From Liolophura sinensis (taxonomy: Eukaryota > Mollusca > Polyplacophora > Chitonida > Chitonidae), in NCBI RefSeq assembly GCF_032854445.1, contig NC_088295.1, positions 27,951,385 through 28,015,384 on the forward strand: 64,000 bases of DNA. Direction: 5' to 3'. The notes beneath the pieces were generated by a model. That model was not told where the DNA came from and did not search any database. It saw only the letters and a list, made by a program, of their open reading frames with translations. How positions within the stretch are numbered: the first letter of the stretch is position 1; the number at the start of each line of letters is the position of its first letter. Made by a program: the position numbers and the translations under genes. Below, in pieces: positions 2,554 through 12,005 of the stretch.

Positions 2554-2814
2554 TGATTTGGTTCACTGTCACGCCATAGATGAGAAAGCCTCTATATATT
2601 CTTGTGTGATAAAGCATGATGTTGATGGCATTGATAATATTTGTTAGAGACCCAACATGCCTCTAGTGCAATTCATCAACCAAGCTTGTTGGTTAACATA
2701 GCCCGATCGTATGCCCTCTTGGTTTAGACACAAGGTGTATGGTCTGTCCTGAAGAGTGCCATGTTTTTGGCACAGTAAGTTTCATTTCTATGTCATGATA
2801 CAGTCCACAATCTG

Positions 2815-4148
2815 TTACTTCTTGAGATTGAGTTCTTCCAGCGTTTCCCCAGGAACATATTTCTCAATACACTGTAGACTGTAGTCTAATAACATTTCCT
2901 GACGCTCCTCTCTCCTGAAACATTCAATCATTTGGTTACTACAGAACACCCGTTATCGTTTCTGTGACTCAGAAATCAATTTTAAAGCATATGTTGTAAC
3001 TATATTCGCTCTTCCCCATAAAGTCTCGGAATAAATTTAATTAAAAGTACGAAGAATTTTAACCAGACATCTAATGCAAGGCTTTCAATTGTACAAGAAA
3101 ACAGATGTGAAGGAGACTGTTGTCTCGGCCTTTAGCAAACCTACCTCGACTCTGCTGAGGTCGCCCGCGGAACAGTTTCGTCATAATACAAACATTTGAT
3201 GCCTGCTAGTTTCGGACTGACGGCCATGTAGACAATTGACAGAGCAGCAGAGTCGGCGCCCCTCATAAATCCGGTCTTGTGTAAGAGGTACTTCACGGGA
3301 GGCAGGGAATAAACTGGAAGTAAAACGGTGTTCATGAGGGTCAATGAAACAAGGGGTAAAAGTGTGCAAATTTTAAGTTTGAATTTGACTTTGCACAAAT
3401 AACTTGAAAGATGCAGAAAGATATCCGGAGAATTAAGTGATATCCTAGTTAAGCTGCAAAAAGTTTTTCCAGATCAGGTTTTTTTCTCTCCTAAAATGAT
3501 CAAAGTATAAATCAAATTATTATATCCTTCATTATTGCTCTAAATAATGAATTAGGTCTTTCCAAGACTAAGATTTGATGAATGTTATTATATAATGAAG
3601 CCAAAAGGATCATCCTTAAATTAAACACGGCTGCCAAAGTGGAACATAAAAAACAATTTACTTAGCATGTGACACAATGTAAATGAATTTTGCCTATAGT
3701 GAAGCTGGAATGCATATGTAAAATGACATTACGATCTAACCCATTTTCAAGCCTCGGTTGAACCAGCCAAACCAGGTCTTGTCATCCATGATTCCCTGTT
3801 GAATGTTCGTCTCGATGACCCCTGGGTGTAAGGAGCTGATGGTCACGTGAGAGTTGGTGATCCGCCTCTGAAGCGCGTACATGCTCATGATCTGTTCGGG
3901 TGGAATGAGTTGAAGCTGTACAATCTCCCATACAGAGGACTTATTTATGTGATTGGTGTTAAACCCTGGTTGTAGTTGGTAACATATATACTATTTGTAT
4001 ATTTTACTGCATTTCAATATTCAAGATATAAGTGAAAGTCTTTCGACCACATAGAAGAACGCAATGCCGATTTTTTAATAGCGTAGGCCAAAATGTAGTG
4101 TGTATCAGATGAAAAACTGTCCAGGAAAATAGTTCCATTTTTTCAAAG

Positions 4149-4191
<43 letters not shown>

Positions 4192-7100
4192 AGTATGCAT
4201 TTGGATTTTGATGTTGTGGAGATAGCGACATGGCGAGTGGCTTCTCTATGATACATTAAGCTTAACTCCACAGAATATGTGATAGTTTTAAGTTCACCGT
4301 GCATGAAAACTTTCACGGAAACCTGGCCTGACCGGTTATATTTATTTATTTATTTGATTGGTGTTTTACGCGGTACTCAAGAATATTTCACTTATACGAC
4401 ATCGGCCAGCATTATGGTGGGTGGAAACCGGGCGGAGCCCGGGGGAAACCCATGACCATCCGCAGGTTGCTGACAGACCTTTCCACGTACGGCCAGAGAG
4501 GAAGCCAGCATGAGTCCGGTTATAAGAAATGTTTCAAGCAAGCAGGCCTCGCAAAAATAAGTTGTATGCTGTGATAATATCTGTACACTAAAAAGTTGCA
4601 TCCGCAAATGTATTTTACCTGATAAAGTTTAGATTTACTGTAGAATCCCACTCGGCCGTACGCCTTCTCTCCATGAATGTTGTCCATTTCAAGGCTGGCA
4701 AAAAGGTGTAATTTGGCAGAAACGTTCACAATTCGACAATCCGGCCCAGAATCCATCAAAACGGGAAGTAACAGAAGCGTCATCAACAGATGGGATAAAT
4801 AATTCACCTGCAGAAACAAACACACATTCAACGTTTTACCGTTTTTTAACTGTCACATGATTAGTTGTATTTAGATGATATATAGGGTCTACGGCTGGCC
4901 TTAAATTTTCCTTAATGATGACAAGAAGTTGGACATTTTTCCGGGTTTCCAAATCCTAGTCAACGTGAGAAATCACTCATAACCTGAACACCAAAACACA
5001 GTCCTGACTGAATATACCTATGACGTATGCACGTTTGTAAAATTGAAAAACATATGTAATATGAGGTGACTGAAACCAAAGCAATACACACCTGAAAATG
5101 GGTTTCGTATCCATCTGCTGTAAAACCTGGAATTACGAATTGGTACGGATTTATTTGGCTGCATACGATCATCATTTTTACATGTTTATCCACGGCGAAA
5201 TCCAATAAAATCGTTACAGTTTACAGAATATGCATTCTAATGAAATTTGCTTACATGGAACTAAATTGTTAAGCATTCAAGAAACCAACCATATGTGTGT
5301 ATATACGGACGAACACAGTATATCACACGCACAGTATGAACTCCCACAGTAGATTATTTCATTATGCTGCATGTGGTCCTGGTCCTAGTCAGACGCTAAT
5401 TAAAGCGCTGGCTGGTAGCAACTGATACTCTCTTAAGAAAGATTGGTTCTTCCAGGCACCCGGATTCGTTCTTTGGTATGCCACACTGGTGGAACCAAAG
5501 TTAGTAAATCTTTTTTTTTTTTTTTTGCTGCACAGGTCTTCGACCCGCAGCCAATCGCAAGCACGGTCTATGGACTACTACGGCAATTCATCACTGTCCT
5601 GCACTGTACTTTCCCACTTTTGATTCTTAACGACCCACACTATCAGAGGGCCTTTAAGGTTGAATCAGGGCCACCTGACGAATGCGAGAGTACCTATACC
5701 CTACACTAACGGTTTGATTTCTCACCTTTTCCAGAGGTTGTTTTGTTGTTGATAATGAATCACAACAAAGATCGGTCCGTAAAAGTAACTGGACTCTTCT
5801 ACTAGCTCACGGCATGTGTACGTGTGTGTCGTCGCGACTATAGTTTGTTTCAAACACAAAGTTTGCTTCTTTGCGCATATAACACAAGTATAGGATAGAG
5901 GTCTGAAAAGTCTTCACGATTATGACGGGTCGGAGCTGTCACGATTCGTAATTGAAGTTCGAAGGAAGGACGGAACTCCGTACCCGCCCAACACGTTAGT
6001 CCAGATTTCTTCTGGGATTCAGCCGCATTTGCGCGATGACTTAAACCGCGCTGATGTGAACTTATTTTTGAAAAGTGACCCCACCTTTGACAGTTTCAAA
6101 AAGGCAACTGATGCTCGTATGTAGGAACTGACGGTCAGCGGTTTTGGGACAACTGTCCGTAGTGAAGACCCGGTCCTTGCCGAAGAAGAAGCAGAATTCT
6201 GGGATAAAGGCGTATTCAGATTAAATAGCGCCAAAGGATTATCTAATGCTGTGTTTATTTTTTTCCAACTGCAAAGCATTTGGCTCCAGAGGGATGCAAG
6301 AACATCGTAACATGGAATCCGAACAGTTTTCCATAGAAACGGACAAAACCTATGGATTACGATACCTTCGGTATGTTTCTCGTGTATCCAAAATGCTCAA
6401 GGCGGACTAAACCAGAGAAAAGTTGCCCCTAAGGATATCAAACATTCTGATGGTGTGAGCAACGACAGGTGCCTTGTAAAATTGTACAGTTTTTATAGAA
6501 AACCATTGCTCGAAAACGATAAATTCAAATATCCTAGATTTAGTGCCACAGCCTTATCAGAAAATGAGATGAAGAAAATGTTACAGAATATTTATAAATC
6601 AGCAGGGATTGACACGGGTAGCAGAAACATCACCAATCACAGTGGACGTGTTACGTGTTGTACAATAACGGATTTGATGACAACGCGGTGTGTAGCAGAT
6701 CCTGGCACAGAAGTTCCGCGGTAAATGTATATGTTACAGTCAATCTGTGTAATCGGTCATTACGCGTAATGACAACAAATCAGTCATTTCGTGAAGTGCC
6801 TGTGAGCACCAGGCAATATGTGTAATGACTAAAAATTCCAGTCATTACACGAACTGACTAAAAATCATGGTCAGGCATTACGTGAAATGACTAAAGGCTA
6901 TAAAACATCAGTTGAATATAAAGAGTTTATTGGCGATTGATCATGATGAAGTAAATCATTAAGTAAAGTCAAAAGCACAAAATGAAGTCATACATCACAG
7001 TTAAAATCATACACAATGAAAGTCTTACAGTCAGTTCTCTTTAAAAATACTACATGTTGTTGGTTAGTATTATGAGTCATTTATTTTTGCACATTAGGCT

Positions 7101-10100
7101 GCTGTGACACCGGCTGGAGCATTTTATTTTATTTTTAAAACACTTGCACCTATTGGTTCCACATCTCTTGGAGCCTGCACAATTGCACCGTACATATCCC
7201 TGACCACCACAGCTTGATTCCATATGTACAGCCTGGCGTAGTGTTACCCTCTTTGTACAGTCTACATCAGAATCAGTAAGTAAATACTGGGGACACAAAT
7301 CAAACTGATTGCGTGAAAACTTTCCTTTCAGAATCCCAGCTTTAACACAAATGGTGTACATGTCATTCATATCACGGCCCAATATCATTCCCTGAATATT
7401 ACGTGAATCACCACGTCCCCCTATCCACAAGAGGAATAGGTACAGCCACATTGTCTCCCACCTTACCACTGGCTAGTTCCTCTTGACCATACGCTGAGCT
7501 TGTGTCATCTGGGCAGAGCTGGCACCCTTTCTCTCACTTGAAATGTTTTGTAAGCGGTCACTTAATAAATCTGAGGATACGACAGCTGGATCATTGTCAC
7601 TGCTCATTTGATCAACTGGCAGACTAGCTGGAGGTGTAAAGCCCATATCAGTCGTTTGCGCAGGTTCCTGAGTGGTGGTTGGTGTTGGTTCCTGGGTGGT
7701 AGTTGGTGTCAGTTCCTGGGTGGTAGTTGGTGTCAGTTCCTGACTGGTTGTTGGTGTTGGCTCAAGATTAGAATATGCTAACACTAGATCATCCTCACTT
7801 TGCATTCGTTCAACAACCTCAGTCGGCAAAGATGATGATGTTAGGCCATCTTTAGCTTCACACCCAAACATAGCGGCATATTGTGATCGCTGGATTCCAG
7901 AATGCAAACTGCAATTTTTCTGGAACTGCACAAATTTGATGCCTACAGACCAATCATTTGTGTTATTATCTCCAATTCAAGCAACAAGCATATCCTTAAT
8001 GTCACCATTTGTTCTTTCAACAGAGCCTTGACTTTGAGGGTGTCGAGGTTTACCATGTATCATGATAAGTGTTGGCCTAACTAGTTTCAGTTCAGAGATT
8101 ACTTCAGCAGTAAATTTACTTCCATTGTCGCTCTGAAGGATGGATGGAGTACCATTAAGAAGAAAGATAGCTGATGGGCAAACTCAGCAGCACGTTTTGA
8201 AGTTAATGCTCTCAGTATAACAAACTTGGTCAAGTGGTCCTGATAGACCATGATCCACTTGAATGAATTTTGGGCCATAGACTGCATATCAATAAGGTCA
8301 ATCTGTGCACGCGAGCCGAATTCCTTCGTGAGAGTGGGACGTACTACTACACCCTTGGTCCTTGGGCGCTTGTGCTTCTTCTGGCATTCCTGGCAGTAAA
8401 ACTTGAAAAGAGCCTCGCGAGTTATGTTGGCATACTCTTTGTTGACCTTTCTGACCATTCGATCACGTCCACCATGGCCTGTGGCTTTGTGAGCTCTGTT
8501 AACCATGTCGTATGTATCTTCTATACTAGCATATACTGGATCCTCATCTTGGGTGGCTCGCTTTTTGATCAGTTTCTCGACATCACCACACTGCAGTATC
8601 TCAAACCTGAAATAATACAAGAAATTTATTTAACAAGAGATTTATATAACAAACATAAATAGATCGTGCATGCATGGTCTTGAATAAGAATACTTGATAT
8701 AAACTGCCAAATATCGATAGTATATCAAAATGACCGTTACGCTGGCTTAAATCTTAAATCTGTTATACGGCTGTTAAGAGCTCTGTAACTTGGCACCATA
8801 TGCCTGTTGTTTTTAAATTGAATAAATCTAAACATAAACTTACTTTGATAAAAGGTAGTATCCATGTCTGTTCTGCGTTCCAACAGCTCTCGCTGTCTCT
8901 TTTAAATCTTCTTTCATTGTGAAGTAGGTCTCCTTCGGAATCAAAACATTCTTGCAAACTTGATAATTCTTATAAAGCGCCTCAATAAACTGGTTTTCAT
9001 AAAATTCTGCCATGGTGATATCTTGTAATGGTTGTAACAGAATGATTTATGGCAAAATTCTGTTACAATGCAGGTTATATGGGAAAATTTTCTAATCCAC
9101 AGGTTTGCAGGATTAAGAAGTCACTTTGGGTATAAAGCCCCTGGAGAAAAGACACAGTTTCGGGGCTTAATTGCCATGTGCTTGGGGGCTTAAGAAGAAG
9201 TCACTTATGGAAGCCACTCATTCTAGGAAGCCACTCTCACTTTGGGTATAAAGCCCCTGGAGGGAAGACACAGTTTCAGGGCTTAATTGTCATGTGCTAG
9301 GGGATTGAGAAGACGTCACTTGGGGAAGCCACTCACTCTGGGAAGCCACTCTCACTCTTAAGAACTTTTCATTTGGCGTGTTTAAAAAGGCCGTATTACA
9401 TCTGTAACCACTGTGCTACTTGTTGTATGATAGTAAAATCATACTGGCATCGAGATCAGAGTAATCCGATAATAACAACATTGTCGTTTTATGTGTTACA
9501 CACACTGCCTGGTTTGCAGAATTGGCATTCAGGCATTTTGTTTAGAAGAAAGGCTTGATTTTTAGTCAGTTCGTGTAATGACTGGAATTTTTAGTCATTA
9601 CTCGTATTGCCTGGTGCTTACAGGCTCTTAACGAAATGACTTTGTTTAGTCAGTACGCGTAATGACTGATTACACAGATTGACTGAAACATATATAAGAA
9701 GGAACTGACACTTAATCCACCAGCTCCAAACAAATCTCAGTTAGCTGGTTCTGAAAAAAGTGCCACGCCACCCGGTGAGCGCAATTCTTCATGTTGTCAT
9801 TCATCCACAAAAAATGACGAAAACACTTGTACTGTTATTTTACCTGTCTCTGTCAAGTATGTGACCATAGTACAAGGTGACAAGAAAATTAAACATGAAC
9901 TGTAAAACTGTGTTATCTGTGACATAAGGTCAATGTGTCTAATTCTAAAAGCATATATTGCCTTTATAGGGACTGTTCTTTAAACTTTGTGGCGTAAGCA
10001 AACTTCTTTGTGACTTGCTTATTGCCAAATTTGAGAAACATTGTTTAATGTTCCCAGTTATAACCTGAGGTAAATATAAAATACATACCTTTTGATACAT

Positions 10101-11772
10101 GTAAGTTCCAGAACGTGAGTTAACTTTATTAAAAGAATTCATTTGTTGCAATTTATGCCTTGTTTCATTTTATATACAGCCGTGCGAAAGCAAGAAAACC
10201 CGCGTCGTTTAGTTGTTATTCATTGATTCTAGGCTGCAGGTGTTTGATTATGTTCATTACTGTCAAACATTTGCGGCTGGGAAATGACCTGTCAATCAAT
10301 GTCTGCTCACTAGGCGCACGGTTTCTTTGGCTCCGCCCCTACTGTCTTCATATGACGACGTTTTCTTCATCAATAAGTACTTTGGAATTAAAGCCTGTAA
10401 TGGGCTGAAAACACCATCGATAGCCAATCTGTCGTCTAATGATATGACAGAGACTTTTATTGCTTACCCATTCAGTAGCATATTTTGGATTATATTCCAT
10501 ATATAACAACAGGTTTCATAAAGAACCACTGATGAGAGCAAAAAACCACGCAGTTCTATAAATAACCAAGATTTCTGAGAGTGTAGGCCGTTTACCAGTA
10601 TATATGGTAGAGTGCTCAAATCTGGTACCAGGCGAAGAGCGATGGTGTACATTGTATAAAAGAGAAACACAACAAGCGGCTGCTTACTTTGTGGTATCCC
10701 GAACACAGCCGCATTACAGATGAGGATATGTAACGGAAGACCAGTGTCTTTAAACTTCACACAGAAGTCGTGCACACTCTGTAGATTAGACAAATCCAGT
10801 GGTATGAACCGCAGATCGGGTTCTGTAATTCCATCCGCCGCACACGCTGTCTTGATATCCTCTATTGCCTGTAGATTAAAAAAAAATTGTATGTTTTATT
10901 GTTGTGTACCTTGTGAGACATGCATATATAATTATAGGCCATTCTACAAGGATGAGAATAAGATACATGAGCTCCATGTCTCATATCTGCATTGTATAAT
11001 ATACGTAGAAAAATCGGCCAATCAGAATTTTTTAAAAATTTTAATGGAGGTCAAAAATAATGTACGGTACACAGTTTAATGTATCCCGAGCATTTTCCTA
11101 CGTTCACTGACCGCAGCCTCCGAAAAGGTCGCGGAAATATGGTATAATATATGGGAAGGCAAAATGTAATGTATATGATGCAAACTTGCAGTCACTCTGT
11201 AGTATATACCTTGTACTACATATGCTCTGTTGTGTATCTTTGACTGTCCATGCCATATCTCGTGTGAGATTTGTGAGAGGTATATAGTCCTCTCATTTTA
11301 AATTCCTTTCTTACTTTCAGGGCTCTTTCCTCGGATCTGCACCCTAACACGACCTTACAGCCCAGACAGGCCAGCTGTTTGGCCGTCTCCAAACCCAGAC
11401 CTGCCAAACATAAACAGTAACTTGTATTTGTTGTTTATCAGCCCAGAGTGAACTTCATGTTCACCCAAGCCATGTACAGGTTTGACCTGATTTTCTTTAC
11501 AATCAAAACAAAGCCATGAACTGTTATGATTTCATCACCAGATTTATGCAGGCAAGAAGACATCACCTAAAACACAATATATATTATCCAATGTCATTTT
11601 AGGCTGTATGTGAGCAATATACGAAAGTCCAGGCAATAACAGATATCAAATATATATATATACATGTATAGGCTGTATGTTGCAGCTAATTAGTAACACA
11701 ACCAGTGCGATAAAGATCCTTGGTGATGCGATAAAGATGCCACATACAGACTACTATAGTGCAGACTCTGTC

Positions 11773-11804
<32 letters not shown>

Positions 11805-12005
11805 TCGATAGGGCTGAATAGCCGCCATATACGTCCTGCATGCTGTGATCTCAGGGTTAGTAGATAACACCACAGTTACATGTTAAGCCTTCGGTTTTCA
11901 GACTGGAGTTGGATAAATCTTGTACAAACCCTGGTTAGCTCCTGTGACAACAGCCACCCTGTTCAGTGGCGGCTGCACATCACTAAGGGAGAGTGTAGCG
12001 CCCAT
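2815..12005 (-). CDS. Short-chain dehydrogenase/reductase, WWOX/DHRSX/RDH-like, no WW domains
   Basis: Eight minus-strand exons join in frame with GT-AG introns: 11930-12005, 11315-11400, 10688-10868, 5092-5117, 4619-4807, 3741-3891, 3145-3313 and 2815-2914. They encode 325 aa. Visible motifs are the nucleotide-binding TGANQGLG (residues 21-28), NAA at 106-108 in place of NNAG, the catalytic Ser in VNVSAK (153) and the YSKSK active-site pair Tyr179/Lys183. HPGVIETN follows. The order fits a classical SDR that uses NAD(P)(H). The segments LPLHILICNAAVFGIP and DGYETHFQVNYLSHL are closest in style to the SDR domain of WWOX and to DHRSX/retinol dehydrogenases, but no WW domain precedes it. Substrate is unknown. 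The start at 12005 gives a short leader (MGATLSLSDVQPPLNR) before the first beta strand, as expected. Intron 3 (5118-10687) is swollen by nested transposons. Intron 5 (3892-4618) holds a microsatellite and a SINE. It is transcribed divergently from the ferritin-like gene. Confidence 0.93.
4149..4190. repeat. (TA)n microsatellite
   Basis: An almost pure run of alternating T and A, about 35 bases, continuing into GTATATAAG. It lies in intron 5 of the SDR gene, next to a SINE. Confidence 0.95.
4341..4515 (-). repeat. SINE family A copy, 5'-truncated, with target-site duplication
   Basis: The tail (TTTATTTATTTGATTGGTG on the + strand), the TACTCAAGAATATTTCACTT block and the GCCAGCATTATGG block are present. 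The tRNA-like head is lost. The flanks carry a perfect 9-bp duplication, CCGGTTATA, at 4332-4340 and 4516-4524, which marks an insertion by target-primed reverse transcription. Confidence 0.9.
5118..5935. other. SDR intron 3, proximal part; left flank of the Crypton
   Basis: No gene is seen. The open frame at 5443-5709 contains a T-run and has no recognisable domain. The left end of the Crypton must lie in or near this stretch, but no terminal feature marks it. Confidence 0.4.
5936..6731 (+). pseudogene. Crypton-type tyrosine recombinase, left part, broken
   Basis: Translation in shifting frames gives FVIEVRRKDGTPYPPNTL, ELTVSGFGTTVR, RNMESEQFSIET, GGLNQRKVAPKDIKHSD and NITNHSGRVTCC. These match the arrangement of the DUF3504/Crypton tyrosine-recombinase domain, the family from which ZMYM2-4, QRICH1 and KCTD1 took their C-terminal domains. 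The NHSGR segment carries the H-x-x-R pair of the recombinase active site. Lesions seen are a TAG at 6122-6124 and frame changes near 6255-6262, 6395 and 6663. The left end of the element could not be defined. The coding sequence stops abruptly at a Ginger insertion at 6732 and resumes at 9691. Confidence 0.78.
6728..6731. repeat. Target-site duplication of the Ginger-like element, left copy
   Basis: TATA directly precedes the TGTTACAGTC terminus. The same TATA follows the right terminus at 9691-9694. A 4-bp duplication is the length known for Ginger transposons. Confidence 0.75.
6732..6867. repeat. Left terminal inverted repeat of the Ginger-like element
   Basis: About 136 bp, matching 9556-9690 in inverted orientation. 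It holds the palindrome GTCATTACGCGTAATGAC and further GTCATT(A/T)C-like motifs in both orientations. Another pair of such motifs lies just inside it, at about 6870-6895. Confidence 0.9.
7077..9013 (-). pseudogene. Ginger integrase gene (KRBA2-like), spliced, broken
   Basis: Exon 8844-9013 (MAEFYENQFIEALYKNY...) joins exon 8606 onward across a GTAAGT...TTTCAG intron. The product has a zinc-binding stretch (HKATGHGGRDR...FYCQECQKKH) and then an integrase catalytic core. The core has Asp in QIDLIDMQ, Asp in QSDNGSKF (after a frame change) and Glu in GSVERTNGD, that is D,D,E. A tail with four 8-residue PTPTTTQE-type repeats follows (about 7666-7767). The end is a Cys-rich region (CNCAGSKRCGTNRCKCFKNK) seen in KRBA2/SCAND3-like integrase proteins. 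Lesions are a frameshift near 8169, TGA at 7977-7979 and a frameshift near 7418; the 7473 frame ends in TAG. The enzyme would cut and join transposon ends. This copy cannot encode it whole. Confidence 0.85.
9121..9357. repeat. Tandem duplication inside the Ginger-like element, two ~116-bp units
   Basis: TCACTTTGGGTATAAAGCCC occurs at 9121 and again from 9237. Each copy is followed by a GGAG...AAGACACAGTTTC...GGGCTTAATTG block and by GGAAGCCACTC motifs. It lies between the start of the integrase gene and the right inverted repeat, where the promoter of that gene would be. Confidence 0.85.
9556..9690. repeat. Right terminal inverted repeat of the Ginger-like element
   Basis: About 135 bp, inverted relative to 6732-6867. 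It ends ...GACTGAAACA just before the TATA duplication at 9691-9694. Confidence 0.9.
9691..9905 (+). pseudogene. Crypton-type recombinase, right part, C-terminal remnant
   Basis: An open frame continues from the Ginger insertion: ELTLNPPAPNKSQLAGSEKS to VSVKYVTIVQGDKKIKHEL, stop TAA at 9903-9905. On the left side the sequence before the insertion can be read SRSWHRSSAVNVY, the usual final recombinase block (HR...Y). The right side then continues as K-K-E-L-T. The two parts therefore belong to one gene cut by the Ginger element. Confidence 0.65.
9906..10687. other. SDR intron 3, distal part
   Basis: No gene is seen. The right end of the Crypton should lie here but is not marked by a recognisable repeat. 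The ORFs at 9945-10151 and 10160-10408 show no domain. Confidence 0.4.
11644..11800. repeat. AT-rich microsatellites in SDR intron 1
   Basis: Two TA runs at about 11648-11660 and 11773-11799, in the intron between the first two SDR exons. Nothing else is recognised in the intron. Confidence 0.9.

Follow-up and report, generated by a model that had tools for sequence, protein, structure and literature searches.

Introduction

Animal Cryptons, with the CryptonA group, were surveyed by Kojima and Jurka in 2011 (PMC3212892), and the Ginger2/TDD DNA transposons by Bao, Kapitonov and Jurka in 2010 (PMC2836005). Fungal and oomycete Cryptons carry direct repeats of 4-6 bp at their ends, which are taken as the substrate of recombination, and the 2011 survey reports that no terminal repeats were found in animal Cryptons (PMC3212892). 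The same source already tabulates transposons nested in Crypton copies (PMC3212892 Table 2), and it holds that the animal DUF3504 genes (WOC/ZMYM, QRICH1, KIAA1958 and KCTD1) descend from Crypton recombinases (PMC3212892). Here, we analyze a 64,000-nucleotide stretch of the genome of the chiton Liolophura sinensis (C1:27951385-28015384; hereafter, the window), in which a Crypton, itself inserted into a short repeat, R, is interrupted by a Ginger2-like transposon.

Animal Ginger2 elements are recognized by a 4-bp target site duplication (TSD) in an RTATAY target, TGTNR ends and terminal inverted repeats (TIRs) of ~50-180 bp (PMC2836005). In Ginger1, the TSD is CCGG or CCGT/ACGG, and OTU or Ulp1 C-terminal domains are nearly always present, with one published Ginger1 element lacking them (PMC2836005). 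The vertebrate host genes GIN-1 and GIN-2 have been traced to Ginger1 (PMC2836005). We are nearly certain that a single intron of an SDR gene in the window holds three stacked, dead mobile elements, namely, R, the Crypton and the Ginger2-like transposon. Transposon nesting of this kind is an ordinary event, and the footprint left by the Crypton at its insertion sites is the part worth following.

Results

Borders of the Crypton and its family

The Crypton occupies positions 5888..10439 of the window on the plus strand (GTATAGG...GTCGTCTAA). It is internally deleted, shares its ends with the other loci of its family, and shows matches to DUF3504 and QRICH1. With the Ginger2-like insert and the second copy of the TATA target, it spans 4,552 bp, and without them, ~1.6 kb. 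The left terminal segment (5888..5936, plus strand; 49 bp), which in fuller copies is the start of a palindrome, is common to at least 10 dispersed places in the genome. It is followed by the broken QRICH1/DUF3504 coding region of the recombinase, which lacks the N-terminal part and extends up to a Tyr codon (5937..6731, plus strand), and, beyond the insert, by the end of the recombinase frame and the 3' part of the element (9695..10439, plus strand), with the element's own CTAA at 10436-10439. The 3' part is 92% identical to a copy on contig C4 over 9708-10438 and to another one on C3 over 10065-10439. Because both copies remain that similar up to 10438-10439, the Crypton ends there and not at 9905. 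The limits proposed in the initial annotation (5936-9905) were wrong at both ends.

The genome (609 Mb, 632 contigs) was searched with one short copy as the query, which yielded at least 52 matches, with the best 40 of 65 candidates scored, and 30 family loci were fetched (L019-L028 and L042-L061). The right end is present in all 30 loci, although incomplete in two (L054, L055), and the left end in 24, remaining unrecognized in L044, L047, L049, L051, L053 and L060. When joined, the two ends of the Crypton read GTCGTCTAAGTATAGG. From end to end, 23 of the 24 measured copies are 185-360 bp long, the remaining one, L019, being 924 bp. In L019, only the start of the reading frame survives (MDAEYFGNFDLL...), with a change of frame within it; the window copy shows the opposite pattern of loss. 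The family consists mostly of short copies, and the Crypton in the window belongs to it as an internally deleted copy.

The fullest left end is found in L052, where it forms a palindrome with 47-nt arms. Terminal segments that read backward had raised the possibility of an invertible left end, which was set aside in view of the L052 palindrome; by eye, the other copies look like one-arm deletions.

The Crypton insertion footprint

In the window, the Crypton is inserted into a copy of R, a repeat of ~160 bp. The left part of this copy, including the 4-mer ACAA at 5884-5887, maps to 5738..5887 (plus strand), and its right remainder, the 10 bp TGATATGACA at 10440..10449 (plus strand), directly follows the right end of the Crypton. 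The left part has at least 28 other matches in the genome, with R matches spanning 71-94% identity. All six fetched copies of R are continuous at the Crypton site, running past the left border with ACCATTATATGACA or near variants; the right arm being short, the sequence anchor failed for five of the six, and these were reread by a pattern, which missed L015. Given that R copies are continuous across the border and that TGATATGACA is present on the right, the Crypton split a copy of R. This third layer had been missed in the initial annotation, in which Ginger within Crypton within an intron was correctly recognized. The empty site is mostly AAC[ACCA]TTATATGACA, with the variants ACGA and GCCA and with C for the second T, and the filled site is AAC[ACAA]G-TATAGG...GTCGT[CTAA]TGATATGACA.

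To extend the comparison to the family, the joined flanks of 21 of the 24 loci with both ends (15 + 6; L054, L055 and L059 were left out) were searched for relatives without the element; the best 40 of 2,786 and the best 40 of 466 candidates were scored, and because one or two very common repeats took up these lists, further sites may have escaped notice. In every fetched relative of L021 (11/11), L058 (7/7) and L061 (5/5), the trimmed flanks are separated by exactly four target bases. The target of L058 is CTTT, with CTTT on the left and CTAA on the right of the insertion, and that of L061 is CTTA, with CTTA on the left and, again, CTAA on the right. For L021, the target is mostly CAAC (8/11), with CAAA on the left and CTAA on the right of the insertion. 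A clean, TSD-free footprint is thus seen at four of the five sites that have empty relatives (the R site in the window, L021, L058 and L061). As the right 4-mer is CTAA whatever the target, it belongs to the element, and the left 4-mer is that of the target, exactly or nearly.

The left 4-mers nevertheless resemble CTAA. Across 24 copies (the 30 loci minus the 6 without a left end and minus L059, a duplicate of L050, plus the window), 64 of the 96 positions agree with CTAA, compared to a mean of 29% and a maximum of 45% at 70 offsets further to the left. On the right side, where L054 and L055, included in the left count, were excluded, 21 of 22 copies have A directly after CTA; L050 and its duplicate L059 differ at this base (T and A, respectively). 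As read from these alignments, the footprint is the outcome expected of site-specific recombination at a short, imperfect core and not of target duplication. On balance, although with considerable reserve, we favor the interpretation that this family displays the integration mode of animal Cryptons: conservative and TSD-free, at a 4-bp CTAA-like core, with the target 4-mer on the left, the element's CTAA on the right, and, next to the former, a palindromic left end as a possible binding site of the recombinase.

The alternative that fares best is that the short elements are an unrelated family of DDE-type miniature inverted-repeat transposable elements with a 4-bp TSD, CTAA, and that the Crypton frame is a passenger or a neighbor. 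Indeed, some copies have CTAA on both sides, and in L027, a 20-nt inverted repeat (427-446 vs 664-683; TTAGACGACTGATTGGCTAT, 85%) links the right end with the inner edge of the left palindrome; the two repeats could also be half-sites of the recombinase. However, the right 4-mer remains CTAA, and so is not a copy of the target, where the target is CTTT, CTTA, mostly CAAC or mostly ACCA, and the beginning of a Crypton-like frame is enclosed by the same pair of ends in L019. We therefore regard this explanation as improbable.

The broken recombinase gene

The recombinase gene in the window is disrupted by frameshifts, and its N-terminal part is lost at 5936, in addition to the interruption by the insert. 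When the pieces are joined with X, DUF3504 is detected with an E value of 3e-12 and a score of 47.3 bits against a cut-off of 29.7, single pieces falling under this cut-off. The QRICH1 profile matches the joined pieces with an E value of 1.9e-6, under its gathering score, and the first piece alone scores above it. An arginine (FGSRG), a histidine and a second arginine (NHSGR), and a tyrosine (VNVY) can all be discerned by eye in the broken frames. The coding part is ~80% identical to the C4 copy.

QRICH1 and DUF3504, the best domain names here, are common to host genes, which raises the possibility that the recombinase-like sequence is a pseudogene or an exon of a domesticated DUF3504 gene of the WOC/ZMYM/QRICH1 kind rather than a transposon. 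We consider this very improbable: the ends are common to dispersed copies (right in 30/30 and left in 24/30 fetched loci), empty sites exist, and the R, H, R and Y residues are present by eye, whereas DUF3504 genes lack most of them (PMC3212892).

Among the best candidates scored, no coding copies of this Crypton family were found besides those on C4 and in L019, which does not imply their absence, and searches with two Crypton protein pieces matched only their own locus. Genome-wide, there are at least 60 DUF3504 matches, the C4 copy among them. Three other DUF3504 matches, at C11:23323203-23323673, C2:17160878-17161318 and C7:55529465-55529908, lie in stop-free open frames of 326-423 amino acids and might represent other Crypton families or host genes.

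The Ginger2-like insert

The Crypton frame breaks at 6731, as initially noted, at the border of a dead Ginger2-like DNA transposon (6732..9690, coding on the minus strand) whose integrase is split over several frames. The length of 2,959 bp and the limits given in the initial annotation proved exact, and the inverted repeats and the TATA duplication recognized there were confirmed. The TIRs are ~136 bp long (6732..6867 on the left and 9556..9690 on the right, both given on the plus strand; element positions 1-136 vs 2825-2959 reversed, 91%) and comprise complementary blocks of 86 nt (94%) and 46 nt (93%). The TSD copies (TATA) flank the insert at 6728..6731 and 9691..9694 (plus strand), the left one overlapping a Val and a Tyr codon of the Crypton frame. 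Seven near-palindromic motifs of 18 bp that resemble GTCATTACGCGTAATGAC are distributed over the two end regions of the insert (6756-6891 and 9565-9666), several in each, and might be transposase-binding sites.

The integrase fragments lie at 7977..8629 on the minus strand, with catalytic residues assigned by eye: the HHCC zinc finger and the first Asp in 8099-8629, and the second Asp and the Glu, 36 residues apart, in 7977-8183 in another frame. When the pieces are joined with X, matches to rve (E 2.2e-6) and to Integrase_H2C2 (E 0.0042) are obtained, neither of which reaches its gathering score. A search of PDB sequences with one integrase piece gave a single chance match (E 0.77).

The element fits Ginger2 and not Ginger1, as judged from the ends and the target. 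The 4-bp TSD in an RTATAY target, the TGTNR ends, TIRs within the 50-180 bp range and a length inside the published 2.75-6.7 kb range (PMC2836005 Table 2) are all shared with Ginger2/TDD; the putative H2C2 finger with a DDE core, for which Pfam scores are below gathering, would be a further similarity. Unlike the latter, the right end of the window copy is TGTTT, and several copies in this family contain internal tandem arrays; a CXC-like C-terminus is merely hinted at (TCR, E 0.11, below the cut-off). Ginger1 was set aside because the target is TATA, not CCGG or CCGT/ACGG; in five pieces of the broken window copy, no match to OTU or Ulp1 domains was found. Hence the initial assignment to Ginger stands with respect to the type of the insert and is narrowed to Ginger2 by the RTATAY target.

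A genome search with the insert produced at least 76 matching pieces that correspond to at least 14 places, including the window. The 13 others (with a local triplicate on C10 counted as three, a 73-bp fragment as one, and two C44 pieces once) provide, together with the window, 15 readable independent ends when the three C10 duplicates are counted once. TATA adjoins 14 of these 15 ends and TAGA one, the base before the target 4-mer is A or G in all 15, and 13 start with TGTNR, the exceptions being the right end in the window (TGTTT) and one end on C6 (TATTA).

Copies of the Ginger2 family also contain unexplained tandem arrays of 94-115-bp units, with different segments expanded in each copy: 5 copies at L002:2750-3296, 4 at L003:3326-3699, 7 at L007:2491-3298, and, in L008, 4 at 1172-1612 and 11.8 at 2602-3941. 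Some of these arrays fall in stretches that match the coding region in the window, where two of the units are found at 9121-9356. Separately, a 24-bp tandem repeat at 7651-7763 of the window lies in the Ginger2 frame and is Thr/Pro/Gln-rich on the coding strand; L008 has a period-24 array of 10 copies.

The empty site and the order of insertions

At C4:872346-873618(-), the homologous Crypton is uninterrupted at the insertion point: it lacks the insert and contains the target once. The window flanks with a single TATA, AATGTATATAAGAAGG, align with the C4 sequence, AATGTGTATAATAAGG, without gaps and with two differing bases; across the junction stretch, the gapless alignment pairs AATGTGTATAATAAGGAACTG of C4 with AATGTATATAAGAAGGAACTG of the window. 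Just to the right of the aligned junction, the window side has a gap of 27 bp. When the insert is ignored, the frame across the junction reads V-N-V-Y-K-K, the TATA straddling the second Val codon (its last two bases) and the Tyr codon (its first two), which locates the break more finely than the initial annotation did. Judging by the spacing, as assessed by eye, this Tyr is presumably the catalytic tyrosine.

The copies of the insert elsewhere are separate from the Crypton. Seven of the 13 other places (L002-L008) were compared with positions 4001-12000 of the window and have no Crypton sequence in common with it, the shared part being the insert and, in three of them, also a repeat at 4337-4514. 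None of the 13 coincides with matches to the Crypton halves, among the 40 + 3 listed. The empty site on C4 and the occurrence of Ginger copies away from Crypton sequence show that the Crypton came first and Ginger second, as initially proposed on the basis of the window alone. This order rests on nesting, not on divergence. Dating by divergence, also suggested at the outset, proved uninformative once the identities were measured: identity to the window is 87-93% for Ginger pieces longer than 700 bp, 80-92% for Crypton copies and 89-94% for the six fetched R copies.

A single composite transposon encoding a tyrosine recombinase together with a DDE integrase, akin to the Crypton/Mariner composite of Fusarium (MarCry-1_FO; PMC3212892), would place both genes within one pair of outer ends, as seen here, but is refuted for practical purposes by the insert-free Crypton on C4, by the 13 Ginger places apart from the listed Crypton matches, and by the insert itself, which has its own TIRs and TSD and splits a codon of the other gene.

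The host gene

The stack resides in an SDR gene on the minus strand, with exons at ~12060-11898, 11400-11320, 10870-10688, 5126-5092 and 4810-4620 (limits by eye). Single exons gave only weak Pfam matches, which are superseded by the conceptually spliced translation: this matches adh_short with an E value of 2.1e-20 over profile positions 2-137 of 195. The predicted spliced product thus confirms the SDR identity and, with it, the placement of both elements in an SDR intron as originally annotated. The intron that holds the stack (5127..10687, minus strand; donor GT at 10687 and acceptor AG ending at 5127, splice sites by eye) separates the third listed exon from the fourth and is 5,561 bp long, and the stacked elements (5738-10449, 4,712 bp) make up 85% of it. 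Outside this intron, the short dispersed repeat at 4337-4514, SINE-like by eye only, is also present in L004, L005, L007, L010, L013-L016, L018 and L019.

Discussion

The alignments demonstrate the order of insertion, R, then Crypton, then Ginger2, together with the element borders, the empty sites and the footprints of both insertions, and no evidence contradicting the nesting itself was found. The following history best accounts for the locus. The repeat R was present first in the SDR intron; the Crypton then inserted into R, most likely in circular form and joined by its own tyrosine recombinase, leaving the target 4-mer on the left and placing its own CTAA on the right without duplication. 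Ginger2 followed by cut-and-paste insertion at the TATA over the presumed catalytic Tyr codon of the now fragmentary gene, duplicating TATA, and all three elements decayed afterwards. The circular intermediate and the responsible enzymes are what we infer.

Several observations count against details of this reading. Usable relatives were obtained for only four of the 21 flank pairs (L020, L021, L058 and L061), among the best candidates scored. In one of these, L020, there is no clean 4-mer: of 11 fetched relatives, 8 were used, and 6 of these have 3 nt between the flanks, the others having 2 and -6. The left 4-mer is one base off most empty copies in L021 and one base off the commonest R 4-mer in the window, where, moreover, R has a right arm of just 10 bp, such that the empty site leans on the 9 of 10 bases that match TTATATGACA. 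The choice of CTAA (from the right end) and of the offset (from the left border) was made once the ends had been inspected. Among the best candidates scored, no intact recombinase of this family was found, and the link between the CTAA core and the Crypton recombinase is one that we infer. As for the inner element, the C4 site is TGTA where the duplication is TATA, the integrase scores stay under the Pfam gathering cut-offs even after the pieces are joined, and one of the 15 insert ends (L004) sits in a TA run and is little informative.

Like the animal Cryptons described in the 2011 survey, the family analyzed here has a DUF3504-type recombinase, short non-autonomous derivatives that are more abundant, and nested transposons; unlike them, it has an imperfect 4-bp repeat, CTAA, as well as a palindrome on the left (PMC3212892). 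The short direct repeats at the ends are shared with fungal and oomycete Cryptons (PMC3212892), but in the chiton family the repeat is imperfect because the target supplies its left copy. Two 4-mers that are similar but not identical might have escaped the searches made for terminal repeats in animal Cryptons. Among the later papers listed from the part of the literature available to us, and in passages of PMC5753468, we recognized no report of terminal repeats in animal Cryptons.

The initial suggestion that both families donated domains to host genes agrees with the view that the DUF3504 genes descend from Crypton recombinases and is not supported for Ginger2 by the 2010 survey, which traces GIN-1 and GIN-2 to Ginger1 (PMC2836005). 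On its own, the nesting of Ginger2 in the Crypton gives only the relative order of old insertions. The Crypton family, in contrast, defines where an animal Crypton begins and ends, which is difficult to establish for elements that have no obvious terminal repeats. With its four insertion sites that have clean empty relatives, the chemistry by which animal Cryptons integrate becomes open to tests in vitro.

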